Both the position numbers and the translations under genes were made by a program. Source: Leclercia adecarboxylata (GTDB taxonomy: Bacteria; Pseudomonadota; Gammaproteobacteria; Enterobacterales; Enterobacteriaceae). From it: a stretch of DNA of 64,000 bases. The notes below the pieces were generated by a model. That model searched no databases, was not told the DNA's origin, and saw only the letters and a program-made list of their open reading frames with translations. How positions within the stretch are numbered: the stretch's first letter is position 1; each line of letters starts with the position of its first letter. The stretch covers positions 2,294,001 to 2,358,000 of the forward strand of contig NZ_CP035382.1 of the NCBI RefSeq assembly GCF_006874705.1. Reading direction: 5' to 3'. Shown one piece after another: positions 36,910 through 60,017 of this stretch.

Positions 36910-37248
36910 GTGATTAACGGAACGGTAATAAACGACACTGGAGACCAGGCGGCGCAAACTGAACAGCTGGCCGACACCATGCTCAAGCAGACCTTCACGC
37001 TGCTTAGTCATCACCACATTATCCCCAATGCCGTTCAGGAGCAGATGCTGACCTCCCACGTTCGCGCCATGGCGCACCGGTCGGTGACCGGCGAGCCGCT
37101 GCCGGAGGTCGAGGCTGACCTGTTCGACGAAATTTCACCTGAATCAATGCGGCTTGCCCGCGAAGTCGTGGCGCAGTTTGGCAACCTTCCTGATGAAGAA
37201 GCCTGGCTGCTCTCCGTCCACTTTGAAGTCGCAAAAGACAACCTTTAA
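36910..37248 (+). CDS. stand-alone PRD-domain protein
   Basis: A 112-residue protein consisting of one PTS-regulation domain. The helices carry the two histidine positions typical of PRDs: LTSHVRAMAHRS in the first half and WLLSVHFEVAKDN near the end. There is no DNA- or RNA-binding domain. The start is a GTG with a weak purine stretch (GGGGTAAGACGA) upstream. Its TAA overlaps the AAGGAG of the next gene, so translation is coupled. In related loci a small PRD protein accompanies the same DUF set. I infer that it reports PTS phosphorylation state to the system, perhaps by competing with or binding the large regulator at 43607. Confidence 0.75.
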   Translation: MINGTVINDTGDQAAQTEQLADTMLKQTFTLLSHHHIIPNAVQEQMLTSHVRAMAHRSVTGEPLPEVEADLFDEISPESMRLAREVVAQFGNLPDEEAWLLSVHFEVAKDNL

Positions 37249-37258
37249 GGAGCACATC

Positions 37259-37621
37259 ATGGAACAAATTACAGTCGTTATCGGCGATCGCCTGGGTAAA
37301 GGTCAGAAGGTTGCAGCAGGCGTTGAAAAAGCGGGCGGCCGCGCAGTGGTGGTACCAGGCGTGGCGGCGGACATGAAGCTGGGTGACGTGATGAAGGCGG
37401 AAAACGCCACCTTCGGCATCTCCTTCTGCGGCAGCGGCGGCGCGGGTGCCATCACCGCTCAGACCAAATATGGCTACAAAGCCAAGTACGGCATGCGTTC
37501 CGTGGAAGAGGGCGTTACCGCCATCAACGAAGGCTGCAACGTGCTGGGCTTTGGCTTTATGGATAAAGAAGAGCTGGGCGAGCGTCTGGTACAGGCGTGG
37601 CAGAAGAAGCACGGCGCATAA
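37259..37621 (+). CDS. glycine-rich SFCGS family protein
   Basis: A 120-residue cytosolic protein of the Gly_rich_SFCGS family, named for the motif seen here as GISFCGSGGAGAITAQ with the cysteine at residue 57. The alpha/beta pattern begins ITVVIGDRLGKGQKVAAGVEKAGG. No enzymatic function is established. AAGGAG precedes the ATG; the gene starts 10 bp after the PRD gene and ends 2 bp before the DUF4312 gene. The small size, single exposed cysteine next to glycines and company of membrane proteins recall an EIIB component of a PTS permease, but this is analogy only; the EIIB signature itself is not present. Confidence 0.82.
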   Translation: MEQITVVIGDRLGKGQKVAAGVEKAGGRAVVVPGVAADMKLGDVMKAENATFGISFCGSGGAGAITAQTKYGYKAKYGMRSVEEGVTAINEGCNVLGFGFMDKEELGERLVQAWQKKHGA

Positions 37622-37623
37622 GC

Positions 37624-37923
37624 ATGAAAGAACAGTTCACCACCACGGTGAGAGTGAAAGGCAAGGGTGACGCCAAAGCGCGCGCCTTTGCCGACGCGCT
37701 GAACCACGTTCAGGCCGCGGTGATGAGAGCATCGCCGCATATCTTACTGCGTATTGAGCCACAGGATGTGCAGGTTGTTCAGGCGCAAGAAGCGGTGCGT
37801 AAAGAGGCGTTTCTGTTCTTCTTTTTGCGCCGGGAAAGACGCACCTACAGCGTGGAGCTGGACGTGACCGTCAACGTGACTGCCATCAATCTGGACCAGG
37901 TGGACTTTGTCACGCAACGCTGA
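37624..37923 (+). CDS. DUF4312 family protein
   Basis: A 99-residue soluble protein of the DUF4312 family, always found with SFCGS, DUF4311 and DUF4310 partners. It begins KEQFTTTVRVKGKGDAKARAFADALNHVQ and contains a charged, aromatic patch FLFFFLRRERRTYSVELDVTVNV. No membrane helix or catalytic motif is recognised. Starts 2 bp after the SFCGS gene. Function unknown; it is presumably a cytosolic subunit of the proposed transporter. Confidence 0.82.
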   Translation: MKEQFTTTVRVKGKGDAKARAFADALNHVQAAVMRASPHILLRIEPQDVQVVQAQEAVRKEAFLFFFLRRERRTYSVELDVTVNVTAINLDQVDFVTQR

Positions 37924-37945
37924 TTCTTACTAATAGGGCAGACTA

Positions 37946-38722
37946 ATGTTCCTGATAATTTTAATAAAATCGCTCATCATCGGCGGCCTGGTTGGCGTCG
38001 GCGTGGGCGCCGGGGCTGCACGCATGTTTCATGCGCCTACCACACAGGGTATGGGCGCGTTTCGTACGTTGGGGGAGCTGAACTCCTGTGAGGGAGACCC
38101 AGCGTCTCACTTCTCCTTTGGGTTAGGCTTCTTCTTCAACGCCTGGGCTTCGTCGGTTGCGGCGGGCTCCTTCACCCAGGACGTTGACCACCGCATCATC
38201 CCGAACTGGGGTGCCGCGGCGCTGATGATCAAAAACCGCAACGTCGGCGAGACGCTGCACGATCCCCGCAAAATGGCGATCGCCTGCGGCGTGATCGGCA
38301 TGATTGTCGTCACCTTCCTGAACCTCACCGCGTCGTCCGTTCCTGCTGCGCTTCAGGTGACCGCCGTGAAGGTGCTGGTACCTGCCGCTAACCTGCTGGT
38401 GAACACCGTGATGCCGGTGATCTTCTGGCTGGCGGCTATCGATGCGGGTAAAAAATCGGGCTTCTGGGCCACCGTCTTTGGCGGCGCGGCGCAGCTGATT
38501 ATGGGTAACGCCGTACCGGGCCTGGTGCTGGGGATCCTGATCGGTAAAGGCGTGGAAGAGAGCGGCTGGAACCACGTCACCAAAGTGATGATGGTCGCCA
38601 TCGTCGCGCTGTTCGTGCTGAGCGGCTTCTTCCGCGGCTTCGACATGAAGATGATTGAATCCTTCCATCTGACCGTGCCGAACTGGCTCGACATGATCCA
38701 CAACTCGCTCAGCGGCAAGTAA
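37946..38722 (+). CDS. DUF4311 polytopic membrane protein
   Basis: A 258-residue inner-membrane protein with about six to seven helices: residues 3-25 (LIILIKSLIIGGLVGVGVGA), 55-75, 103-125, 133-155, 162-190 and 205-225. The helices are glycine/alanine rich, as in channels and transporters. FRTLGELNSCEGDPASHFSFG is a conserved-looking polar loop that could line a binding site. The ATG has only a weak TAGGGCAG upstream. Two membrane genes in a row (this and DUF4310) suggest a two-component membrane unit. Assigned by the family set and topology; the transport role is inference. Confidence 0.8.
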   Translation: MFLIILIKSLIIGGLVGVGVGAGAARMFHAPTTQGMGAFRTLGELNSCEGDPASHFSFGLGFFFNAWASSVAAGSFTQDVDHRIIPNWGAAALMIKNRNVGETLHDPRKMAIACGVIGMIVVTFLNLTASSVPAALQVTAVKVLVPAANLLVNTVMPVIFWLAAIDAGKKSGFWATVFGGAAQLIMGNAVPGLVLGILIGKGVEESGWNHVTKVMMVAIVALFVLSGFFRGFDMKMIESFHLTVPNWLDMIHNSLSGK

Positions 38723-38735
38723 CAGGAGCCTCTAA

Positions 38736-39377
38736 ATGGAACAGAATAAAGGTTTTTGGTATGCCGACTGGTCGTTCCCGATCTTCGTTGGCCTGCTCTC
38801 CTCCGGCGTGTTCGCCGGGACGCACATGTACTACCTCTACGGTATCGGCGCTTTTAACGAAGTGGCCTTCGTGGCGATGCTGAAAGCGGGTATCGATACC
38901 GGTGCCTACGGCGCGGTGGCGGCGTTCGGCGCCAGCTTCCTGTTTGCCCGTATTATCGAAGGCTCCCTGGTGGGGATCCTCGATATCGGCGGGGCGATCC
39001 AGACCGGGGTGGGCCTCGGCGTTCCGGCGCTCTTGCTGGGGGCGGGCATCATGTTCCCGGTGACCAACTTTATCGCCTCGCTGGCGACCGGCCTGATTAT
39101 TGGCCTGGCGATTGGTTACATCATCATCCTGGCACGTAAGTTCACCATCAATCAGAGCAACTCCACCTACGGGGCTGACGTGATGATGGGGGCGGGTAAC
39201 GCCTCCGGCCGCTTCCTCGGGCCGTTGATTATCCTCAGCGCGATGACCGCGTCGATTCCCATCGGCATCGGTTCCCTGTTAGGCGCCCTGCTGTTCTACA
39301 TCTGGCAGAAGCCGATTACCGGTGGCGCCATCCTCGGTGCGATGCTGTTGGGCTGGCTGTTCCCGGTCGCCCTTTAA
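38736..39377 (+). CDS. DUF4310 polytopic membrane protein
   Basis: A 213-residue inner-membrane protein with about five to six helices, including WSFPIFVGLLSSGVFAGTHMYY, GVGLGVPALLLGAGIMFP, FIASLATGLIIGLAIGYIIIL and the C-terminal ILGAMLLGWLFPVAL. The basic loop ARKFTINQSNSTYGADVMMGAGNASGRFLGP lies mid-protein. CAGGAGCC precedes the ATG. It immediately follows the DUF4311 gene (13-bp gap). It is the presumed second membrane subunit of the uptake system. No homology to a named transporter family is obvious by eye. Confidence 0.8.
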   Translation: MEQNKGFWYADWSFPIFVGLLSSGVFAGTHMYYLYGIGAFNEVAFVAMLKAGIDTGAYGAVAAFGASFLFARIIEGSLVGILDIGGAIQTGVGLGVPALLLGAGIMFPVTNFIASLATGLIIGLAIGYIIILARKFTINQSNSTYGADVMMGAGNASGRFLGPLIILSAMTASIPIGIGSLLGALLFYIWQKPITGGAILGAMLLGWLFPVAL

Positions 39378-39419
39378 TACCCGCGGGCGCTCAGGCGCCC
39401 GCCTTATCAGGAGAACCCC

Positions 39420-40553
39420 ATGTTTGATTTACTCCTGCGCCGCGCGCGCCTCACCGACGATACCCTGACCGATATCGCCATTCAGGACGGGAAGATCGCA
39501 GCGGTGGGCAACATCGCCGCGCCTGCCCAAAAAACGGTGGAGCTGAACGGCGAAGTGTTTGTCAGCGCAGGCTGGATTGACTCCCACGTCCACTGCTACC
39601 CGAACTCCCCGATTTACCACGACGAGCCGGACAGCGTGGGCATTGCCACCGGCGTCACCTCGGTAGTGGACGCCGGCAGCACCGGGGCGGATGACGTGGA
39701 CGACTTCTGCGCCATCACCCGTAAGGCCTCCACCGAGGTATTTGCCCTGCTGAACATCTCCCGCGTGGGGCTGATTGCCCAGAACGAACTGGCCAACATG
39801 GCCAACATCGACGCTGACGCGGTGAAGCAGGCGGTACAACGCCACCCGAATTTTATCGTCGGCCTGAAAGCGCGCATGAGCAGCAGCGTGGTCGGTGAGA
39901 ACGGCATTACGCCGCTGGAGCGCGCCAAAACGATCCAGAAAGAGAACGGCGATCTGCCTCTGATGGTACACATCGGCAACAACCCGCCGAATCTCGACGA
40001 AATCGCCGACCTGCTGAGTTCCGGCGATATCATCACCCACTGCTACAACGGCAAACCGAACCGCATTCTGACCCCCTCCGGGGAACTGCGCGCCTCCGTC
40101 ACCAACGCCCTGAAGCGCGGCGTGCGTCTGGACGTCGGCCACGGCACCGCGAGCTTCAGCTTTGAGGTGGCGAAACGCGCCATCGCGATGGGCATTCTGC
40201 CGCACACCATCAGCTCGGATATCTACTGCCGCAACCGCATCAACGGCCCTGTAGGCTCGCTTTCGAGCGTGATGTCGAAGTTTCTCGCCATCGGCATGTC
40301 GCTGCCGCAGGTGATCGAGTGCGTGACCGCCAACGCCGCCGACGGCCTGCGCCTGGCCCATAAAGGCCGCATTCAGCCAGGTCTCGACGCCGACCTGACG
40401 CTGTTTACGATTAAACGCCAGCCAACCGTGCTGACGGATGCGGAAAACGACAGCCTGCAGGCTGAACACATTCTGGTGCCGCTTGCCGCGATCCGCGCGG
40501 GCAAGGGCTACATGACCGAACAAGGGAGCACGGAACATGCCTTCAATTTTTGA
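39420..40553 (+). CDS. metal-dependent amidohydrolase / deacylase
   Basis: A 377-residue amidohydrolase-superfamily enzyme of the EF_0837-like group. Metal ligands are visible: H56 and H58 in DSHVHCY, a likely carbamylated lysine K150 in VGLKARMSS, histidines in LMVHIGNNPP and ITHCYNG, and an aspartate in HTISSDIYCRN. The TIM barrel is flanked by the usual beta-sandwich pieces at both ends. CAGGAGAACCCC precedes the ATG. The next gene overlaps it by 17 bp. Given the ammonia-lyase and aldolase that follow, I infer removal of an N-acyl group from an amino-sugar acid or its phosphate; a lactam or imide substrate is also possible. Confidence 0.85.
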   Translation: MFDLLLRRARLTDDTLTDIAIQDGKIAAVGNIAAPAQKTVELNGEVFVSAGWIDSHVHCYPNSPIYHDEPDSVGIATGVTSVVDAGSTGADDVDDFCAITRKASTEVFALLNISRVGLIAQNELANMANIDADAVKQAVQRHPNFIVGLKARMSSSVVGENGITPLERAKTIQKENGDLPLMVHIGNNPPNLDEIADLLSSGDIITHCYNGKPNRILTPSGELRASVTNALKRGVRLDVGHGTASFSFEVAKRAIAMGILPHTISSDIYCRNRINGPVGSLSSVMSKFLAIGMSLPQVIECVTANAADGLRLAHKGRIQPGLDADLTLFTIKRQPTVLTDAENDSLQAEHILVPLAAIRAGKGYMTEQGSTEHAFNF

Positions 40554-41655
40554 GAAATATAATTTAAAACAAGTGATTAACACCTCCGGGCGCATGACGG
40601 CGCTCGGCGTCTCCACCCCGCGCCCGGAAGTGGTGCAGGCGGCGATGGACGGCATGAACCAGTACTTCGAGATGAAGGATCTGGTCAACAAAACCGGCGA
40701 GTACATCGCGAAGCTGCTGGATGTGGAAGGGGCGACCGTCGTCTCCTGCGCCTCGGCGGGCATTGCCCAGTCGGTGGCGGCGGTGCTGGTGAAAGAGAGC
40801 GACTGGCTGCTGGAGAACCTGCACGTCACCCCGATTGAGAACAACGAGATTGTCCTGCCGAAAGGCCACAACGTTAACTTTGGCGCCCCGGTGGGCACCA
40901 TGGTGGCGCTGGGCGGCGGCAGGCTGGTGGAAGCCGGTTACGCCAACGAATGCTCCGCCGATCAGCTGGCGGCGGCGATCACCCCGCGCACTGCGGCAAT
41001 CCTCTATATCAAATCCCACCACTGCGTGCAGAAGAGCATGCTCAGCGTGGAGCAGGCGGCAGTGGTGGCGCGTAAACACGACCTGCCGCTGATCGTCGAC
41101 GCGGCGGCAGAAGAAGATCTGCACGCTTACTACCGCTCCGGCGCGGACCTGGTGATCTACAGCGGCGCGAAGGCCATCGAAGGGCCAACCAGCGGCCTGG
41201 TGATCGGCAGAACCCAGTACGTCGAGTGGGTCAAGCGTCAGACGGCAGGCATTGGCCGCGCCATGAAGGTGGGTAAAGAGGGCATTCTGGGCCTGACCTG
41301 CGCCATCGAACACTACCTGACGGCGACTAAAGAGAGCGGTGCGGAAATGGTGGCGAAGATGACGCCGTTTATCGACGCGCTCAACACCCTGAACGGCGTC
41401 ACCGCGCGCGTGGTCTGGGACAGCGCGGGTCGCGATATCGCCCGCACCGAGATTAAGTTTGACGAAGCCACTACCGGTGTCGGCACCGGCGACCTGGTGC
41501 ATGCCCTGAAGCAGGGCGAATACGCTATCTACTTCCGTGGCTACAAAGCTAACGAAGGGATTATCGAAGCCGACGTGCGCAGCGTCAGCGCAGACCAACT
41601 GAATATCGTCTATCGCCGCATCAGCGAAGTATTAGGCCAGGAGAAAAAGGCATGA
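40537..41655 (+). CDS. DgaE-family PLP-dependent ammonia-lyase
   Basis: A 372-residue fold-type I PLP enzyme related to Salmonella DgaE, the D-glucosaminate-6-phosphate ammonia-lyase, and more distantly to selenocysteine synthase SelA. It begins FEKYNLKQVINTSGRMTALGVSTPRPEV, a family hallmark. The PLP lysine is K212 in VIYSGAKAIEGPTSG, preceded by LIVDAAAEEDLH, which holds the aspartate contacting the PLP ring. Expected reaction: a 2-amino-2-deoxy-hexonate 6-phosphate to 2-keto-3-deoxy-6-phosphogluconate plus ammonia. It overlaps both neighbours (17 bp upstream, 4 bp downstream), so the three enzymes are made together. Confidence 0.88.
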   Translation: MPSIFEKYNLKQVINTSGRMTALGVSTPRPEVVQAAMDGMNQYFEMKDLVNKTGEYIAKLLDVEGATVVSCASAGIAQSVAAVLVKESDWLLENLHVTPIENNEIVLPKGHNVNFGAPVGTMVALGGGRLVEAGYANECSADQLAAAITPRTAAILYIKSHHCVQKSMLSVEQAAVVARKHDLPLIVDAAAEEDLHAYYRSGADLVIYSGAKAIEGPTSGLVIGRTQYVEWVKRQTAGIGRAMKVGKEGILGLTCAIEHYLTATKESGAEMVAKMTPFIDALNTLNGVTARVVWDSAGRDIARTEIKFDEATTGVGTGDLVHALKQGEYAIYFRGYKANEGIIEADVRSVSADQLNIVYRRISEVLGQEKKA

Positions 41656-42392
41656 AACTGACCCCCAATTTTTACCGCGACCGCGTGTGTCTGAACGTGC
41701 TGGCCGGATCCAAAGCCAACGCCAGCGCCATCTATGAAGCGGCAGAAGGCCATGTGCTGGTGGGTGTGCTCTCCAAAAACTACCCGGACGTGGACAGCGC
41801 CGTGGCGGACATGCGCGAGTACGCAGCCCTGATCGATAACGCCCTCTCCGTGGGCCTGGGGGCGGGGGATCCGAACCAGTCGGCGATGGTGAGCGAAATC
41901 TCCCGCCAGGTGCAGCCGCAGCACGTCAACCAGGTCTTCACCGGGGTGGCTACCAGCCGCGCGCTGCTGGGGCAGAGCGAGTCCGTGGTTAACGGCCTGG
42001 TCTCCCCGACCGGCACCGTCGGGATGGTGAAAATCTCCACCGGCCCGCTGAGCAGCGCGGCACCGGACGGCATCGTCCCGGTGGAAACCGCCATTGCCCT
42101 GCTGAAGGATTTCGGTGGCAGCTCGATCAAATACTTCCCGATGGGCGGCCTGAAATGTCGTGACGAATACAAAGCGGTGGCGGAAGCCTGCGTCCGTCAC
42201 GACTTCTGGCTGGAGCCGACCGGGGGAATCGATCTGGAGAACTATGAAGCGATCCTGCAGATCGCCCTGGATGCGGGTGTGAGCAAGATCATTCCGCATA
42301 TCTACAGCTCGATCATCGACAAAGCCAGCGGCGACACGCGCCCGGAAGACGTGCGTACGCTGCTGGAAATGACGAAGAAGCTGGTGAAGTAA
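41652..42392 (+). CDS. DgaF-family 2-dehydro-3-deoxy-phosphogluconate aldolase
   Basis: A 246-residue TIM-barrel aldolase of the KDGP aldolase/DgaF family, distinct from Eda. It begins LTPNFYRDRVCLNVLAGSKANA. VKISTGPLSS and SSIKYFPMGGLKCRDEY contain lysines, the latter a good candidate for the Schiff-base lysine, and WLEPTGGIDLENY forms the phosphate-binding end. Expected reaction: KDPG to pyruvate and glyceraldehyde 3-phosphate. It starts within the end of the ammonia-lyase gene (ATGA overlap). It is the last enzyme of the compact operon before a 58-bp gap. Confidence 0.88.
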   Translation: MKLTPNFYRDRVCLNVLAGSKANASAIYEAAEGHVLVGVLSKNYPDVDSAVADMREYAALIDNALSVGLGAGDPNQSAMVSEISRQVQPQHVNQVFTGVATSRALLGQSESVVNGLVSPTGTVGMVKISTGPLSSAAPDGIVPVETAIALLKDFGGSSIKYFPMGGLKCRDEYKAVAEACVRHDFWLEPTGGIDLENYEAILQIALDAGVSKIIPHIYSSIIDKASGDTRPEDVRTLLEMTKKLVK

Positions 42393-42410
42393 AACTATCC
42401 CTCACCCTAA

Positions 42411-42430
42411 CCCTCTCCACAGGGAGAGGG
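42411..42430. repeat. CCCTCTCC/GGGAGAGGG dispersed hairpin
   Basis: A short palindrome preceded by CCCTCACCCTAA, lying in the 58-bp gap between the aldolase and lactonase genes. The same unit occurs at 62878-62897, and a related one follows fklB. A recurrent intergenic hairpin of enterobacterial genomes that may dampen expression of the last operon gene. Confidence 0.65.
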
Positions 42431-42450
42431 AATAACGATCAGGAGCCACC

Positions 42451-43587
42451 ATGCACACCCGTAACCTGCTTGTCGCTTCACTCTCTCTACTTGCTACCGC
42501 CGCTGTCGCCCAGACGCAGTATGCCTGGGTGGGGACCTACAATCCGAACGGTGAAGGGCTGTATCGTTTTACCCTCGACCCGCAGTCCGGCGCGCTCGGC
42601 AACAAAACGCTGGTGAGTAAACTGCCGAACGCCGCGCAGTTGGCCGTTTCACACGACGGCAAAACGATCTATCTGGCCAGCGAAGTGGAGCAGGGCGTGG
42701 TGCAGGCGCTGCGGGTGGGCGAAAACGGCGAGCTGAGTGAGCTGAATCAGGTGGCGTCCGGCGGTGCGGGCCCGGTGTATCTCTCCCTGACGCCAAACGG
42801 CCAGCACCTGCTGGTGGCCAACTACGTCAGCGGATCCATTGCCGTTCTGCCGATCAACGCAGACGGCAGCCTGGGTGATGCCACCGATAAACATCAGGAT
42901 CGGGGCGAGCCGGGCGCCGCAAAACCCGAAGCGGCAGCCGAAGGCAGTTTTGCCATCAGCGATCACAACGGTCCCCATGCGCACATGATCGCCGCCGATC
43001 CGAGCGGGAAATTTGTCTTTTCCACCGATCTGGGGCTGGATCGCATCTATCAGTACCGTTTTGACGATCGAAGCGGCAAGCTGACCCCGAACGATCCGCC
43101 GTTTATCAGCGCCTCCTCGAAAGGCGCCGGGCCGCGCCACTTCGTCTTTACGCCAAAAGGCGATGCCCTGTGGCTGATTAACGAAGAGGCGTCTACGCTC
43201 ACCCATTATGCCGTGCAAGCCAACGGCACGCTGAAAGAGGGCAGGACGATCTCTGCGCTGCCGGAAGGGTATAAAGGCACCAGTTTTGCCGCCGGGCTGG
43301 CACTCAGTGCCGATGGAAAGCAGCTGTATGTCGCTAACCGTTTGCATAACAGCATCGGGCACTTTACCGTAACGGCGGATGGCACGCTGACGCATCGGGA
43401 CGATGTCTGGACGCGTGGCGATTACCCGCGCACCCTGACGCTGGATAAACAGGGACGCTGGCTGTACGTCATGAACCAGCGCAGCGACAACATCACCCGT
43501 TTCCGCGTGGCGCAGGACGGCAAGCTGAGCTTCGAGCCAGACTATACCCCGGTCGGCAGCCCATCCCAGATGGTCATTTCACCTTAA
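42451..43587 (+). CDS. exported lactonase of the 6-phosphogluconolactonase (YbhE) family
   Basis: A 378-residue seven-bladed beta-propeller lactonase. Repeated blade motifs are visible (GTYNPNGEGLYRFTLDPQSG, NGQHLLVANYVSGSIAVLPI, KQLYVANRLHNSIGHFTV, RWLYVMNQRSDNITRF). Unlike cytosolic E. coli Pgl (331 residues) it opens with a clear Sec signal peptide, HTRNLLVASLSLLATAAVAQ, so it should act in the periplasm. CAGGAGCCACC precedes the ATG. I infer that it opens a sugar-acid lactone outside the inner membrane before import of the free acid. It follows the aldolase gene by 58 bp and precedes the regulator by 19 bp. Confidence 0.84.
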   Translation: MHTRNLLVASLSLLATAAVAQTQYAWVGTYNPNGEGLYRFTLDPQSGALGNKTLVSKLPNAAQLAVSHDGKTIYLASEVEQGVVQALRVGENGELSELNQVASGGAGPVYLSLTPNGQHLLVANYVSGSIAVLPINADGSLGDATDKHQDRGEPGAAKPEAAAEGSFAISDHNGPHAHMIAADPSGKFVFSTDLGLDRIYQYRFDDRSGKLTPNDPPFISASSKGAGPRHFVFTPKGDALWLINEEASTLTHYAVQANGTLKEGRTISALPEGYKGTSFAAGLALSADGKQLYVANRLHNSIGHFTVTADGTLTHRDDVWTRGDYPRTLTLDKQGRWLYVMNQRSDNITRFRVAQDGKLSFEPDYTPVGSPSQMVISP

Positions 43588-43606
43588 GCAGTAAGAGGAC
43601 AACCCC

Positions 43607-45517
43607 GTGCGATTTCCCAACCAACGTTTAGCGCAACTGTTTGAAATGTTGCAGAACGAGACGCTGCCTCAGGACGAACTGGCGCAACGGTTGTCGGTAT
43701 CCACGCGTACCGTCCGGGCTGACATTACCGCGCTCAACGCGCTGCTGGCGGGGAACGGGGCGCAGTTTATCCTCAGCCGCGGGAACGGCTATCAGCTGAA
43801 AATTGACGATCAGGCCCGCTACCAGCAGCTGCAGGATTCCCACCCGCGGATGCTGCGGATCCCGCGCACCGGCCCGGAGCGGGTGCACTACCTGGTGGTG
43901 CGCTTTCTCACTTCGGCGTTCTCCCTCAAACTGGAGGATCTGGCCGACGAGTGGTTTGTCAGCCGCGCCACGCTGCAAAGCGATATGGCGGAGGTGCGCG
44001 AGTGGTTTCACCGCTATCGCCTGACGCTGGAGACCCGCCCGCGCCACGGCATGAAGCTGTTTGGCAGCGAGATGGCGATCCGCGCCTGTCTGACCGATCT
44101 GCTGTGGCAGCTGGCGCAGCAGGACAACCTCAATCCGCTGGTCACCGAAGTGGCGCTGAATGCAGGCGTGCCGGAACAGCTCGCCGCCGTGCTGCATGAG
44201 ACCTTCACCCGCCACCATATTCGCCTCACCGACGAAGGCGAGCTGTTTTTACGCCTCTACGGCGCGGTGACGGTGCGGCGCATCAGCGAAGGCTATCCGC
44301 TGCCAGAATTTAACGCCGAAGAGGTGGCTGAGAACGTGCGCGATGCCGCGCGGGACATCGCCAGCGCCATCGCCCGGCTGGCCGATAAGACCCTTTCGCC
44401 TGCGGAAGAGACCTGGCTGGGGGTGCATATCGCCGCCCGCCAGGTGCAGGAGATCTCCCCCAGCGCCATCAACGCCGATGATGAAGAGGCGCTGGTGAAC
44501 TACATCCTGCGCTATATCAACACTCACTTTAACTACAATCTGCTCGACGACACCCAGCTGCACGCGGATCTCCTGACCCATATAAAAACCATGATCACCC
44601 GCGTGCGCTACCAGATCATGATCCCCAATCCGCTGCTGGATAACATCAAGCAGCATTACCCGATGGCGTGGGACATGACCCTTGCGGCGGTCTCCAGCTG
44701 GGGAAAATACACCCCCTATGTGATCAGCGAAAACGAGATCGGTTTCCTGGTGCTGCACATCGGCGTCGGTCTGGAGCGCCATTACAATATTGGCTATCAG
44801 CGCCAGCCGCGGGTGATGCTGGTCTGCGATGCGGGCAACGCGATGGTGCGGATGATCGAGGCGGTATTGCAGCGTAAATACCCGCAAATCGAGGTGACGC
44901 GCACCCTGACCCTGCGGGAGTACGAGCAGTGCGAAAGCATCAGCGAGGACTTCGTGATATCCACCGCGCGGATCGCGGAAAAAGCCAAGCCGGTGGTGCT
45001 GATCGCCCCGTTCCCGACCGACTATCAGCTGGAGCAGATCGGCAAGCTGGTGCTGGTGGACAGAACGCGCCCGTGGATGCTGGAGAAGTTCTTCGACGCC
45101 AGCCATTTCCGCGTCATCGATCGCCCCATCGACCAGCAGACGCTGTTCCGGGAGCTGTGCGACCAGCTGCAGGAGGAGGGATTTGTGGACGCGGAGTTTC
45201 TCGACTCGGTGGTGGAGCGCGAGGCCATCGTCAGCACCCTGCTCGGCGACGGTATCGCCCTGCCGCACTCCCTCGGATTGCTGGCGCAAAAAACCGTGGT
45301 CTACACCGTGCTGGCCCCGCAGGGCATCCAGTGGGGCGATGACACCGCGCACGTCATTTTCCTGCTGGCGATCAGTAAAAGCGAGTATGAGGAGGCGATG
45401 GCGATCTACGATATCTTCGTCACCTTCCTGCGCGAACGGGCGATGACCCGGCTGTGCGGCTGCCACGACTTCGACGAGTTTAAAACCGTGGCGATGGAGT
45501 GTTTGAGCCGGTTTTGA
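43607..45517 (+). CDS. BglG/MtlR-type transcriptional activator with PRD, EIIB and EIIA domains
   Basis: A 636-residue PTS-controlled regulator. Order: HTH_11 (about 1-60, ELAQRLSVSTRTVRADITAL), Mga-like HTH (about 80-150), PRD1 (about 180-285), PRD2 (about 295-395), EIIB-like domain with C407 in MLVCDAGNAMVRM, and EIIA-like domain with H554 in GIALPHSLG. PRD2 keeps both histidines (LLTHIKTMITRVRY, FLVLHIGVGLERH). PRD1 lacks the first one (RLYGAVTVRRI) but keeps the second (WLGVHIAAR). The start is GTG with AAGAGGAC upstream. DNA-binding, not RNA antitermination, is expected from the HTH pair. It is presumably the activator of the 36910 operon. Its stop is 2 bp from the convergent nrdG stop. 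Confidence 0.9.
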   Translation: MRFPNQRLAQLFEMLQNETLPQDELAQRLSVSTRTVRADITALNALLAGNGAQFILSRGNGYQLKIDDQARYQQLQDSHPRMLRIPRTGPERVHYLVVRFLTSAFSLKLEDLADEWFVSRATLQSDMAEVREWFHRYRLTLETRPRHGMKLFGSEMAIRACLTDLLWQLAQQDNLNPLVTEVALNAGVPEQLAAVLHETFTRHHIRLTDEGELFLRLYGAVTVRRISEGYPLPEFNAEEVAENVRDAARDIASAIARLADKTLSPAEETWLGVHIAARQVQEISPSAINADDEEALVNYILRYINTHFNYNLLDDTQLHADLLTHIKTMITRVRYQIMIPNPLLDNIKQHYPMAWDMTLAAVSSWGKYTPYVISENEIGFLVLHIGVGLERHYNIGYQRQPRVMLVCDAGNAMVRMIEAVLQRKYPQIEVTRTLTLREYEQCESISEDFVISTARIAEKAKPVVLIAPFPTDYQLEQIGKLVLVDRTRPWMLEKFFDASHFRVIDRPIDQQTLFRELCDQLQEEGFVDAEFLDSVVEREAIVSTLLGDGIALPHSLGLLAQKTVVYTVLAPQGIQWGDDTAHVIFLLAISKSEYEEAMAIYDIFVTFLRERAMTRLCGCHDFDEFKTVAMECLSRF

Positions 45518-56045: not shown

Positions 56046-58430
56046 ATGTTACGGTACAGCCTCCTGACCGCCGGGCTTATGCTCGGTTTTTCTGCGTTTG
56101 CCGCCCCGGCAGGCGATCTCCCTCTGATGCCCTGGCCTGCAAAGGTCGAACGTCCTGTCACCCCGGGCGCGCTGGTCATCAACAATAACTTCTCCGTTAG
56201 CGTCTCGGGGGACGATCTCGGTGACGCGGTGACACGCCTGCGTCAGCGGGTGGCGCTGCAAACCGGCTGGACCCTCCAGCCCCAGGCCGACAAACCCGAA
56301 AAACCGACGGTGTCCATCGCCATCGCCCGGAAGGTGGCCCCCCAGCCTAAACCGGACAGCGATGAAAGCTACAAACTCACCGTGGACGCCAGCGGGGTGA
56401 CTATCACCGCCAATACCCGCTTCGGCGCGCTGCGGGCGATGGAGACCCTGCTGCAGCTGATCCAGAACGGTGCGGAAAATACCTCCCTGCCGTGGGTCAG
56501 CATTGAGGATGCCCCGCGCTTCCCGTGGCGTGGCCTGCTGCTCGATTCGGCCCGCCACTTTATTCCGCTCGACGACATCAAGCGCCAGATCGACGGCATG
56601 GCGGCGGCGAAGCTCAACGTGCTGCACTGGCATTTAACCGACGATCAGGGCTGGCGCTTTGCCTCAAAGCGCTACCCGAAACTGACCGAACTCGCCAGCG
56701 ACGGCCTGTTCTATACCCAGGATCAGATGCGTGACGTGGTGCGCTACGCCGCCGCGCGTGGCGTTCGCGTGGTGCCTGAAATTGACATGCCCGGCCACGC
56801 CTCGGCCATTGCCGTGGCCTATCCGGAGCTGATGAGCGCCCCGGGGCCCTATGAGATGGAGCGTCACTGGGGCGTGCTCAAGCCGGTGATGGATCCCACC
56901 AAAGAGGCCACTTACGTCTTTGCCGGGGCGATGATCGCCGAACTGGCGGCGATCTTCCCGGATCCCTACCTGCATATCGGCGGCGATGAGGTGGACGACA
57001 GCCAGTGGAAAGCGAACCCCGCCATCCAGCAGTTTATGCGCGACAACAAGCTGGCCGACAGCCACGCATTGCAGGCGTATTTCAACCGCAAGCTGGAGAC
57101 GATCCTCGAGAAAAACCAGCGCCAGATGGTGGGCTGGGATGAGATCTTCCACCCGGATCTGCCGAAAAGCATTCTGATCCAGTCCTGGCAGGGGCAGGAC
57201 GCGCTGGGCGAGGTGGCGAAGCAGGGCTACAAAGGAATTCTCTCCACCGGGTTTTATCTCGATCAGCCCCAGTACACCGCCTATCACTACCGCAATGAGA
57301 TCGTGCCCCAGGGGCTCAACAACGTGGACGTCATCACCGATCGCGACAGCGCCCAGAGCTGGTCCTTTACCCTGCCGCGCCTGAAGGGCAAGCCGGTGGA
57401 GGGGAGCTTCACGCTGGTGAAAGGCGACGCGGGCTGGCGCGGGTTTATCGATTTCAGCGGCAAATCGCGGCGGGCGGTACAGGACATCGACTGGCGCAGC
57501 GACAACCAGGTGAGCTTCACCGTCGATACCTGGATGGGGGAAACCCGCCCGGTGGTAACGGTGAAGGACGACAAGATTGAAGGCTATTTCCTGCTGGGCA
57601 ACAGCCGCTATCCGGTGACGGGTCAGCGGCTGGATGCGGTGCCGGAAGGGATCGCCCCGGCGGTGCCTGACGCCAGCCAGCAGGCGAATCTGCTGGGCGG
57701 CGAGACGGCGCTGTGGGCGGAAAATGTGTCTGCCCCGGTGCTGGATATCAAGCTGTGGCCGCGGGCGTTTGCGGTGGCGGAGCGGCTGTGGTCGGCGCAG
57801 GACGTAACGGATGTCGATAACATGTACACCCGCCTGCAGGCAATGGACAGCTGGTCGACGGTATCGGTGGGCTTACAACAACATGCCCGTCAGCAGGTGC
57901 AGTTCACCCGTCTGGGGAACACCACCGACACGATGGCGCTGAACATCCTCGCCCAGGCGCTGGAGCCTGCCCAGTATTACACCCGCAATCATCTCAAGTT
58001 CCAGGCCGGAAACTACGATCTGTTTGAGCCCCTGAACCGCCTGGCCGACGCGCTGCCTCCGGAGAGCAACCAGGTGCGGCAGATGGACCGCTGGGCCGAG
58101 CGGCTGGTGAGCGATGCCGAAGACAGCGAAAGCGCGGAGTCCCTGCGTCATCTCTTTACCCGCTGGCAGACCAACACCCCGGACGCGCTGGCGCTGGCCG
58201 AAAACAGCTATCAGCTGAAAGCGCTGAAGCCGGTGATTCAGACGGTGGATAAGCTGGCGACGATTGGGCTGCGCTTAACGGATCTGGTGGCGCGCCAGGG
58301 AACGCTGGATGATAACGAGATTGCGTCGATTCAGGGCGAGCTGGATAAGGCGGCGCAGATTCAGGATGAAGTGGTGATTGCGGCGGTCTACCCGCTGGAG
58401 AAACTGCTGCGCGCAACGCGCAATCAGTAA
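56046..58430 (+). CDS. exported GH20 beta-N-acetylhexosaminidase (chitobiase type)
   Basis: A 794-residue glycoside hydrolase that removes terminal GlcNAc from chitooligosaccharides. The signal peptide (RYSLLTAGLMLGFSAFA) is cleaved near residue 19. The GH20b N-terminal domain is at about 25-150 and the GH20 TIM barrel at about 155-500, with WRGLLLDSARHFIPLDDIKRQIDGMA, LHWHLTDDQGWR and the catalytic Asp-Glu pair D314-E315 in HIGGDEVDDSQW. A C-terminal region of about 250 residues follows. AATAAGGAACATTC precedes the ATG. No lipobox is seen, so it is probably periplasmic or secreted. It is convergent with the LPMO gene; absent from this site in E. coli K-12. Confidence 0.92.
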   Translation: MLRYSLLTAGLMLGFSAFAAPAGDLPLMPWPAKVERPVTPGALVINNNFSVSVSGDDLGDAVTRLRQRVALQTGWTLQPQADKPEKPTVSIAIARKVAPQPKPDSDESYKLTVDASGVTITANTRFGALRAMETLLQLIQNGAENTSLPWVSIEDAPRFPWRGLLLDSARHFIPLDDIKRQIDGMAAAKLNVLHWHLTDDQGWRFASKRYPKLTELASDGLFYTQDQMRDVVRYAAARGVRVVPEIDMPGHASAIAVAYPELMSAPGPYEMERHWGVLKPVMDPTKEATYVFAGAMIAELAAIFPDPYLHIGGDEVDDSQWKANPAIQQFMRDNKLADSHALQAYFNRKLETILEKNQRQMVGWDEIFHPDLPKSILIQSWQGQDALGEVAKQGYKGILSTGFYLDQPQYTAYHYRNEIVPQGLNNVDVITDRDSAQSWSFTLPRLKGKPVEGSFTLVKGDAGWRGFIDFSGKSRRAVQDIDWRSDNQVSFTVDTWMGETRPVVTVKDDKIEGYFLLGNSRYPVTGQRLDAVPEGIAPAVPDASQQANLLGGETALWAENVSAPVLDIKLWPRAFAVAERLWSAQDVTDVDNMYTRLQAMDSWSTVSVGLQQHARQQVQFTRLGNTTDTMALNILAQALEPAQYYTRNHLKFQAGNYDLFEPLNRLADALPPESNQVRQMDRWAERLVSDAEDSESAESLRHLFTRWQTNTPDALALAENSYQLKALKPVIQTVDKLATIGLRLTDLVARQGTLDDNEIASIQGELDKAAQIQDEVVIAAVYPLEKLLRATRNQ

Positions 58431-58556: not shown

Positions 58557-60017
58557 TTATTTCTTCAGGGTCCACGCCATGGTCCAGTGGGAACCGACAC
58601 CCGGTTCGAACTGGTTAGCGCCCGCTGCGTACTGAATGCAGTAGCCGCTGTATGGCGCAGTCTTACACTTGTAAGTTTTGCCATTTTTCGGCTGCAGAAC
58701 CACGGTACCGGCTTTGTAGGAGGCGATATTCTGCGGATAGGTGTAGTCGTATTTACCTGCGGTACCGTTATCGGTGTTTGACGCTTCGCCTTCCAGCATC
58801 ATGTCAATCACGTCCTGCGCGAACATGACGCCATCTTTGTTGGACGCGTAGTATTTCAGCATGTGGTGACCCGGCGTGACGTCAGACAGGTTCATGGTCA
58901 CATCTTGGTTGGCGTTGTTCATGTCCTGCTTCACATAACCTTTTTCTGCACCGGCGTGGTTCATCACGCGTGCTTCAAGGTTGACGTTACCCTGGGTATT
59001 CACGTGGAAGGTCACGGTTGCCGCACCGTTTTTGATTTTGCTGAACTTCACGTTAGTGACGGCGATAGCTTCGCTCACCTGCGACTGCTGTTCCTCATAA
59101 GAGACAGCGACAGATTTCAGGGTGCTGCCGTCTTTCACGTAGACGTTGTTCGCGCCGTGAACCGGGTTCACCTCGCCGCTTTCGTCTTTCATGCCGACGC
59201 GGACATCGTTGTGCGCGGCGTTGATCGCCTGCGCCAGATCGAATGCCCACTGGCTTGCCTGGCCCTGAGACGCCGAGGAGACGGTCAGTTCGGTACGCAT
59301 GGAGACCACTTCGCCATTTGCGTCGAAGAAGCGGGCGATCACTTTGTCGCCTGCGTTGACGTTGTTACCCGAAATCTGGCCGTTCAGGGTGTTGGTCCAT
59401 TCGGAAACCACTGCCGGGGTTTCGTCTGGGGTGACGTTGCCGCCATTACCGAAATCAACGTCGATCGCCTGGTAGAAGCTATTAGTGGTATCCGCAATTT
59501 CCCATACCGCGTAAATAACCTGGTAGCCAGTACGCTGCGGAACATTACAGGTCATTTGCTGACGCTGAGCCGGAGCCTGACCATTACCATTTACGGTACA
59601 GAATGGGGTGGACTCAAATTGATCGCGGGTCAGCGGTTTATTTGGATTCCAGTCTTGTTTCGTAATATACCAGCGCCAGTTAACGGTTTTATGTGGTGCG
59701 GTGTGATACCAGGTAAAGGTATTTTTACCCGCAGTAATCGGTGTTTTAGTCCACGCATTCAGGCTCTGGCGATCGAGCTGGGAATATTGGGAAATACCGG
59801 CGCTGGCCAGCTGTCCATCCGGCGGCAGCGCGCCAGTCGGGAAGCCAGAAGTACGTTCAACGCTCTGGGGTTCATATTGAACAGTACCGCAATCGATATT
59901 TTTACCGAGCTTACACATATAAGCGCGGCTGGCCGGAGATTCTACATAACCATGTGCTAAAGCCGATGAGGCAACCGTGAGTGTGGCAAGTGCCAACGCA
60001 ATTTTAGACAGTTTCAT
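58557..60017 (-). CDS. gbpA: GbpA-like AA10 lytic polysaccharide monooxygenase with chitin-binding domain
   Basis: A 486-residue secreted copper enzyme. The signal peptide (KLSKIALALATLTVASSALA) ends so that the mature protein starts with His (HGYVESPASRAYMCK), the first ligand of the copper histidine brace. The second is in TWYHTAPHKTVNWRWYIT. The AA10 domain covers about 22-205, two GbpA-type middle domains about 210-405, and the tail (about 420-486, PYSGYCIQYAAGANQFEPGVGSHWTMAW) is a CBM73/CBM5-like chitin-binding module. The layout is that of Vibrio cholerae GbpA, a chitin and mucin adhesin. GGAATAAAAA precedes the ATG. It is convergent with the hexosaminidase gene. Confidence 0.9.
   Translation of the reverse strand: MKLSKIALALATLTVASSALAHGYVESPASRAYMCKLGKNIDCGTVQYEPQSVERTSGFPTGALPPDGQLASAGISQYSQLDRQSLNAWTKTPITAGKNTFTWYHTAPHKTVNWRWYITKQDWNPNKPLTRDQFESTPFCTVNGNGQAPAQRQQMTCNVPQRTGYQVIYAVWEIADTTNSFYQAIDVDFGNGGNVTPDETPAVVSEWTNTLNGQISGNNVNAGDKVIARFFDANGEVVSMRTELTVSSASQGQASQWAFDLAQAINAAHNDVRVGMKDESGEVNPVHGANNVYVKDGSTLKSVAVSYEEQQSQVSEAIAVTNVKFSKIKNGAATVTFHVNTQGNVNLEARVMNHAGAEKGYVKQDMNNANQDVTMNLSDVTPGHHMLKYYASNKDGVMFAQDVIDMMLEGEASNTDNGTAGKYDYTYPQNIASYKAGTVVLQPKNGKTYKCKTAPYSGYCIQYAAGANQFEPGVGSHWTMAWTLKK

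Follow-up and report, generated by a model that had tools for sequence, protein, structure and literature searches.

A conserved ten-gene block of Leclercia adecarboxylata as a candidate operon for an amino-aldonic acid, with a putative permease tied to the phosphotransferase system

How does an operon take up and phosphorylate its substrate when it encodes enzymes for amino-sugar-acid breakdown and no recognisable permease or kinase? This question is raised by a block of ten genes in Leclercia adecarboxylata (contig NZ_CP035382.1), within the stretch of 64,000 nucleotides analysed here (positions 2,294,001 to 2,358,000; the window). The block encodes a stand-alone PRD protein, four uncharacterised proteins (SFCGS, DUF4312, DUF4311 and DUF4310; with the PRD protein, the module), an amidohydrolase, an ammonia-lyase of the DgaE family, the aldolase DgaF, a lactonase family protein and an activator. 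From gene content and order, a separable unit, a predicted fold and conserved residues we infer transport, phosphorylation with its agent, and the identity of the substrate. The best explanation as a whole, to which we give a probability of about one half, is a transferable operon for an amino-aldonic acid with a DUF4311/DUF4310 permease tied to the phosphotransferase system (PTS) and a 6-phosphate pathway.

According to this scheme, the permease in the membrane would consist of DUF4311 and DUF4310, with SFCGS (which has a predicted RpiB fold and a conserved cysteine) and DUF4312 as its cytosolic subunits, and the stand-alone PRD protein would link it to PTS phosphorylation via HPr. The acid would be imported and delivered as a 6-phosphate, the amidohydrolase would strip the acetyl group, DgaE would eliminate ammonia to give 2-keto-3-deoxygluconate (KDG) 6-phosphate, and DgaF would cleave the latter to pyruvate and glyceraldehyde 3-phosphate. 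Depending on the state of the PTS, the PRD/EIIA activator would switch the genes on.

The gene block, its distribution and a separable unit

Ten reading frames fill 36910-45517 in tight succession, with intergenic distances of 10, 2, 22, 13, 42, -17, -4, 58 and 19 bp in order, and the convergent nrdG starts 2 bp beyond the activator gene. An earlier note, made from the letters of this DNA alone, had described this packing and the families involved, and both are borne out by the reading frames, the Pfam and NCBIfam matches and the distances. The position that it gave for the block, between cybC and nrdG, is likewise correct: in Escherichia coli K-12 cybC (a pseudogene there) directly adjoins nrdG, and megablast of an E. 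coli genome collection with the block as query returned no match. The set is already catalogued. NCBIfam "hypothetical equivalogs" named after EF_0829-EF_0839 of Enterococcus faecalis cover seven of the first eight proteins (PRD, the four uncharacterised proteins, amidohydrolase and aldolase), six of them also being named after AHA_3910-3917 of Aeromonas, so the gene set was known to annotators as conserved. No functional study of the module was found in the open-access literature by family, gene or locus names. Papers that mention DgaE deal with duplicated dgaEF in E. faecalis, with one point mutation and with a screen of mutants (PMC7396535, PMC11448024, PMC12066602).

The family matches support the earlier assignment of the enzymes to amino-sugar-acid breakdown. 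The window DgaE scores 605.7 bits against TIGR01437 (cut-off 385.3) and DgaF 392.6 bits against NF047796 (cut-off 300); with the NCBI family for Salmonella DgaE the score is 378.5 bits, under the cut-off of 600. The closest solved structures of the amidohydrolase are 8wzy, labelled dihydroorotase, and 2ics, labelled adenine deaminase, and we doubt both labels.

A scan of GTDB contigs with E. faecalis DUF4311 as query confirmed at least 542 relatives, of which the best 80 loci were kept; as they were ranked by similarity to the query, the sample is skewed toward Firmicutes. The genera found include Enterococcus, Vagococcus, Lactococcus, Lactobacillus-like genera, Bacillus and Evansella, as well as Providencia, Xenorhabdus, Chromobacterium and others. 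The 80 kept loci, the window and four annotated loci of a plasmid collection make up a set of 85, in which DUF4311 (85), DUF4310 (85), SFCGS (83), DUF4312 (82), PRD (80) and the regulator (75) are accompanied by the amidohydrolase (81), DgaE (80) and DgaF (74). Missed genes are partly due to contig ends and to the simple gene caller, which gives wrong frames in GC-rich loci, and gene order is altered in some of the kept loci. The recurrence of the gene set across the 80 kept loci is not chance. The earlier note had proposed a search for co-occurrence of the four families and for absence of PTS permease genes nearby; the families recur together in these loci, and EIIC is present in 18/85. Its periplasmic opening of a lactone does not belong to the core pathway: the lactonase is found in two of the 85 loci and is a local addition, so this step is not general.

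At family level 74/159 sampled genomes match DUF4310 (one of them by a decayed copy), at order level 45/295 (one partially, G433) and at phylum level 12/398; none of 14 control genomes does. A scan of IMG/VR for DUF4311 gave 279 pattern matches, none of which was confirmed. Between the window and E. faecalis, SFCGS (75%), DUF4310 (73%) and DUF4311 (66%) are more conserved than DgaE (54%) and the amidohydrolase (46%). In the decayed copy (G781, C1:4450660-4451283) the DUF4310 match is interrupted by six stop codons and the module looks decayed, while matches to lytic polysaccharide monooxygenase (LPMO) remain in that genome. The operon of Aeromonas caviae (L018) seems internally deleted, with DgaF almost directly after DUF4311.

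The unit from regulator to DUF4310 is separable from the enzymes, yet is found alongside them in the same genome. Among loci with readable flanks, three carry it enzyme-free: L027 and L030 have regulator, PRD, SFCGS, DUF4312, DUF4311 and DUF4310 with no enzyme gene nearby, and L028 is alike except that no separate PRD was called and its longer regulator (736 aa) contains two PRD stretches. All three genomes encode DgaE in a second operon, composed of a GntR regulator (Pfam-checked in L107), PTS EIIC, a small protein, a MupG-like hydrolase, amidohydrolase, DgaE, DgaF and a PfkB kinase. In E. faecalis both halves, unit and enzyme set, lie in a single run.

Table 1 Features of the gene block and of two neighbouring genes in the window
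Feature	Position	Strand	Remarks
Stand-alone PRD protein (TIGR03582, EF_0829 family)	36910..37248	+	112 aa, GTG start; NCBIfam match only
SFCGS protein (PF14272/TIGR03577)	37259..37621	+	RpiB/LacAB-like fold predicted; Cys57 in CGSGGAG loop
DUF4312 protein	37624..37923	+	Pfam and NCBIfam
DUF4311 (PF14188/TIGR03580)	37946..38722	+	Multi-helix; first half of proposed permease
DUF4310 (PF14187/TIGR03579)	38736..39377	+	Multi-helix; second half of proposed permease
Amidohydrolase/deacetylase (TIGR03583, EF_0837 family)	39420..40553	+	Proposed N-deacetylase
DgaE-family pyridoxal phosphate (PLP) ammonia-lyase (TIGR01437)	40537..41655	+	Arg triad assigned to 6-phosphate present
DgaF, KDGP aldolase (PF07071, NF047796)	41652..42392	+	
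Lactonase family protein (PF10282)	42451..43587	+	Accessory; N-terminus signal-peptide-like by eye only
Mga/PRD-type activator with EIIA_2 domain	43607..45517	+	C407 conserved in EIIB-like motif (by eye)
GH20 hexosaminidase	56046..58430	+	Adjoins LPMO, outside operon; possible upstream substrate source
GbpA-type LPMO (PF03067, PF18416, PF21868)	58557..60017	-	Possible upstream substrate source

Proteins in the place of a permease

Membrane-protein character is apparent in two of the four uncharacterised proteins only, DUF4311 and DUF4310. No EIIA, EIIB, EIIC or EIID domain was found by Pfam scans of the four window proteins or, at E values up to 10, of alignment members (SFCGS 20, DUF4311 12, DUF4310 17, DUF4312 14), and a Pfam scan of the window proteins recognised no permease or kinase gene in the block. 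The earlier claim that such proteins are lacking thus stands for the putative permease proteins and for a kinase; it does not for the activator, which itself contains a PTS EIIA-type domain (Pfam). The placing of the four proteins where a permease would be holds as to position, with the amendment that two of them are membrane-like, SFCGS has a predicted RpiB fold and the PRD protein is probably to be included. We consider the operon real and conserved, and the DUF proteins as its replacement for a permease plausible. Five NCBI families without an assigned function, from gut and environmental bacteria, thereby gain a joint testable role, and one of them a predicted fold and a likely active-site residue.

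The PRD histidines H50 and H104 are retained in all 68 full-length distinct sequences. The stand-alone PRD protein probably belongs with the four uncharacterised proteins, since the unit occurs without enzymes and since the E. coli yhf operon encodes a PRD protein on its own even though no PRD match is found in its regulator, YhfZ. DUF4312 is perhaps dodecin-like, by a match within the chance range. Eleven of 12 DUF4311 members (window 37946-38722) weakly match DUF2232, a predicted membrane family (best E 0.0015). Kinship between DUF4311 and DUF4310, suggested by a similar GAF motif seen by eye and by the helix order in the model, is unsupported (z 1.6; 31 of 400 shuffles equal). Kinship of either with YhfT of the yhf operon was rejected: hhalign was not significant, there was no Pfam cross-match, and the z of 4.1 for the single pair of window DUF4310 and YhfT (0/400 shuffles equal) stands against a median of 0.29 over 204 pairs, below the treB control (2.03).

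SFCGS is predicted to have the RpiB fold. Its Cys57 is retained in 85/85 sequences, and the loop GISFCGSGGAG aligns with GILICGTGVG of E. coli RpiB, keeping the base cysteine and the Thr/Ser two residues later as well as the RpiB Asp position (residue roles from PMC4783025). RpiB/LacAB isomerases share with SFCGS the fold, this catalytic loop and a downstream VLxFG strand; they differ in that the position of the ring-opening His is not kept in SFCGS, the C-terminal phosphate-binding arginines align past its C-terminus, and SFCGS is encoded with membrane proteins. Against E. coli RpiB, the median z was 2.7 (minimum 0.4) for all 85 SFCGS sequences and 2.1 for a set of 20, with 13 control proteins at or below 1.3. 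These z values count against the link, as do several profile comparisons. The window SFCGS scores 16.2 bits with PF02502, under the curated cut-off of 24.7, and this family was listed for 7/20 members (best E 0.01); families that look like chance score equally (Cecropin 7/20 members; DUF1521 best E 0.0038), which weighs against the link. Neither phmmer nor profile searches of PDB sequences with SFCGS found RpiB. By sequence, YhfU (DUF2620) of E. coli K-12 (L002 7349-7702) also seems related to RpiB, and 107/109 homologues have a C[NG][ST]G loop. With the DUF2620 profile, unrelated proteins came out ahead of relatives of RpiB (3ono E 0.14, 2ppw E 0.32), hhalign of SFCGS with YhfU was not significant (shallow profiles), and the pair alone was equalled by 24 of 400 shuffles. 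PMC7146069 describes a different LacB-like protein.

A proposed PTS link and possible sources of the phosphate

Two Bartonella plasmids of about 56 kb (L015 and L016) carry the core operon followed by a gene for a 671-aa HPr-EI fusion (domains assigned from L015), whose active-site motifs HARPA and GGATSH are intact. DUF4311 and DUF4310 are the sole annotated products of this operon expected in the membrane. The Bartonella lineage is generally described as having a nitrogen-type PTS only. The operon of Enterococcus ratti lies directly downstream of HPr and EI genes, and HPr-EI was found in 3/85 loci overall. The simplest reading of these arrangements is that the module would need PTS phosphate, be it for the regulator, the PRD protein or transport. 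Type VI secretion genes adjoin the operon on both plasmids, and L016 has a mirrored duplicate of its replication and partition genes.

In Salmonella DgaE the substrate phosphate was docked by hand next to Arg301, Arg332 and Arg346 (PMC9529869). All 72 of 72 DgaE sequences, among them those of mannose-PTS-type and MupG-type operons, retain these residues, and YhfS does not; the catalytic His162, His163 and Lys217 are equally invariant. The invariance of the triad suggests that the substrate is probably phosphorylated ahead of deamination. PfkB kinases were sought by BLAST to the E. faecalis gene in the 71 loci that have DgaF and no less than 1.5 kb of downstream sequence; 15/17 MupG-bearing loci have one vs 2/54 others (Fisher p 1.9e-11), one of the latter two being a distant gene of 29% identity. 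The usual operon is therefore without a kinase of the PfkB family, which this search covered. In MupG operons the hydrolase would release an unphosphorylated acid requiring a kinase; we no longer take the kinase to prove that DgaE acts there on an unphosphorylated acid, because these operons have the Arg triad too. The common operon, as judged from its genes, leaves either the module or an unlinked kinase as the source of the phosphate.

Several observations weigh against a permease that is tied to the PTS and delivers a phosphorylated acid. Among the matches listed for the membrane model none to a solved fold is credible, which is an absence and not proof of a new fold. DUF4312 (49%) and PRD (38%) fall outside the high conservation between the window and E. 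faecalis. The EIIC-bearing operons also retain the module, so that it is not simply an EIIC substitute. In Bartonella, HPr-EI could have the regulator as its only target, and the EIIA domain of the activator was rejected as a general phosphoryl donor, its histidine being present in 21/75 relatives only. An unlinked kinase may act instead, as kdgK is present in the window's genome.

An alternative is that DUF4311/DUF4310 are an ordinary non-phosphorylating transporter and that the PRD protein and the activator are the sole targets of PTS phosphorylation; either an unlinked kinase would then act on the acid, or DgaE would also take the free acid, with KdgK phosphorylating KDG. The presence of kdgK favours this alternative. 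PRDs are normally regulatory, and the MupG-type operons bring their own PfkB kinase. The marine ong pathway, moreover, deacetylates and deaminates unphosphorylated N-acetyl-D-glucosaminate (GlcNAc1A), with KdgK acting afterwards (PMC9537276). Set against these points are the invariant phosphate arginines of DgaE and the 52/54 MupG-less loci without a PfkB kinase gene nearby, and we find this alternative possible, if rather unlikely. The SFCGS motif may instead indicate a working RpiB-type sugar-acid isomerase or C2-epimerase that broadens the substrate range, DUF4311/DUF4310 being the transporter. The kept Asp, Cys and Thr/Ser positions agree with this, and the lost ring-opening His would be unneeded for an open-chain acid. 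As the phosphate-binding arginines lie past the end of SFCGS, the proposed pathway requires no isomerisation, and SFCGS accompanies the membrane genes even where the enzymes are absent, we regard an isomerase as unlikely. A membrane-bound complex of the four proteins with a sensing or enzymatic role, uptake going via another system, seems very improbable: for DUF4311/DUF4310 no match to a known transporter fold or family was found and EIIC coexists in some loci, yet the core gene set holds no other membrane-family gene.

The preferred scheme of a PTS-tied permease can be drawn more boldly. PRD, SFCGS, DUF4312, DUF4311 and DUF4310 would form an unrecognised class of PTS permease, in which phosphate passes from HPr to the PRD protein (A-like) and on to Cys57 (B-like), the paired membrane proteins (C/D-like) import the acid as a 6-phosphate, and yhfYUT is a second member; this specific version we hold to be distinctly doubtful. 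With PTS Enzyme II permeases the module shares PTS-linked genes nearby, PRD histidines and a conserved Cys in a Gly-rich loop; unlike them, it has no recognisable EIIA, EIIB, EIIC or EIID domain in its four proteins. Phosphorylation of the substrate by the module would add a further architecture to the known PTS permeases; without it, the module would still be a new transporter family.

Substrate and related systems

The chemistry of DgaE and DgaF together with a deacetylase points to an N-acetyl-2-aminoaldonic acid. The substrate would be a 2-(acetyl)amino-2-deoxy-aldonic acid, most likely GlcNAc1A. This compound is released from LPMO-cut chitin, and marine bacteria degrade it via the ong cluster (PMC9537276). 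Side by side about 10.5-14.5 kb from the operon, flanked by mgtA and ridA, lie the genes for a GH20 hexosaminidase and a GbpA-type LPMO, the latter being the only LPMO match in the genome. They raise the possibility that LPMO-cut chitin supplies GlcNAc1A as the natural substrate and that the operon is a second oxidative-chitin pathway beside the ong cluster. The enzyme set fits the chemistry of the ong pathway, and in two Aeromonas species with LPMO, KdgK and KdgA the OngB/OngC homologues were reported to be distant or absent (PMC11653859). Across genomes, however, the co-occurrence is not significant and was rejected as general evidence: LPMO was matched in 17/45 module genomes vs 67/250 others at order level (p 0.15), in 18/74 vs 11/85 at family level (p 0.07), and in none of the 13 f105 genomes that match DUF4310 (one partly). 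Nor were DUF4310, amidohydrolase and DgaE found by the simple gene caller in the sole Aeromonas locus fetched (L018), which is not from the two species of PMC11653859. Given the weak association, chitin is one likely source here and not a general rule, and its oxidation product as the natural substrate is a tentative proposal that we think rather improbable. For bacteria without ong enzymes, the operon supplies candidates for the genes of GlcNAc1A use. In three relatives (G279, G370 and G584), LPMO and DUF4310 share a contig and are no more than about 30 kb apart.

The ong cluster (Pseudoalteromonas, Vibrio, Klebsiella) shares with the scheme deacetylation, deamination and the KDG-6-phosphate endpoint (PMC9537276). 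As described there, it differs in its SSS transporter, D-aminoacylase-type OngB, OngC deaminase, RidA and MurR/RpiR regulator, and phosphorylation by KdgK comes last; the block is set apart from it by these named families, that is, by description. The E. coli yhf operon (yhfZYXW-php-yhfUTS) resembles the block in a stand-alone PRD (YhfY), a large membrane protein (YhfT), a PLP enzyme (YhfS) and, by sequence, a small RpiB-related protein with a Cys loop (YhfU). It lacks DUF4312 and DgaF and has one membrane gene instead of two, YhfT showing no detectable sequence kinship to DUF4311/4310. YhfS is aminotransferase-like, the DgaE residues being absent except for the PLP lysine, and YhfY matches PRD with 20.2 bits, below the Pfam cut-off of 23, and lacks the second PRD histidine. 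The same logic gives a first handle on this uncharacterised operon.

The Salmonella dga operon has in common with the block the DgaE and DgaF families, the Arg triad and the order of deamination and then aldol cleavage (PMC9529869). It encodes the mannose-family PTS DgaABCD, whereas the block has no EIIABCD in the permease position and adds the amidohydrolase, PRD, SFCGS and three DUF genes. Mannose-family EIIA, EIIB, EIIC and EIID also adjoin DgaE-DgaF in a Vagococcus locus (L110). The same genome carries a MupG-type operon (L108) and the stand-alone unit (L028), and is thus a natural comparison of three ways of handling related substrates.

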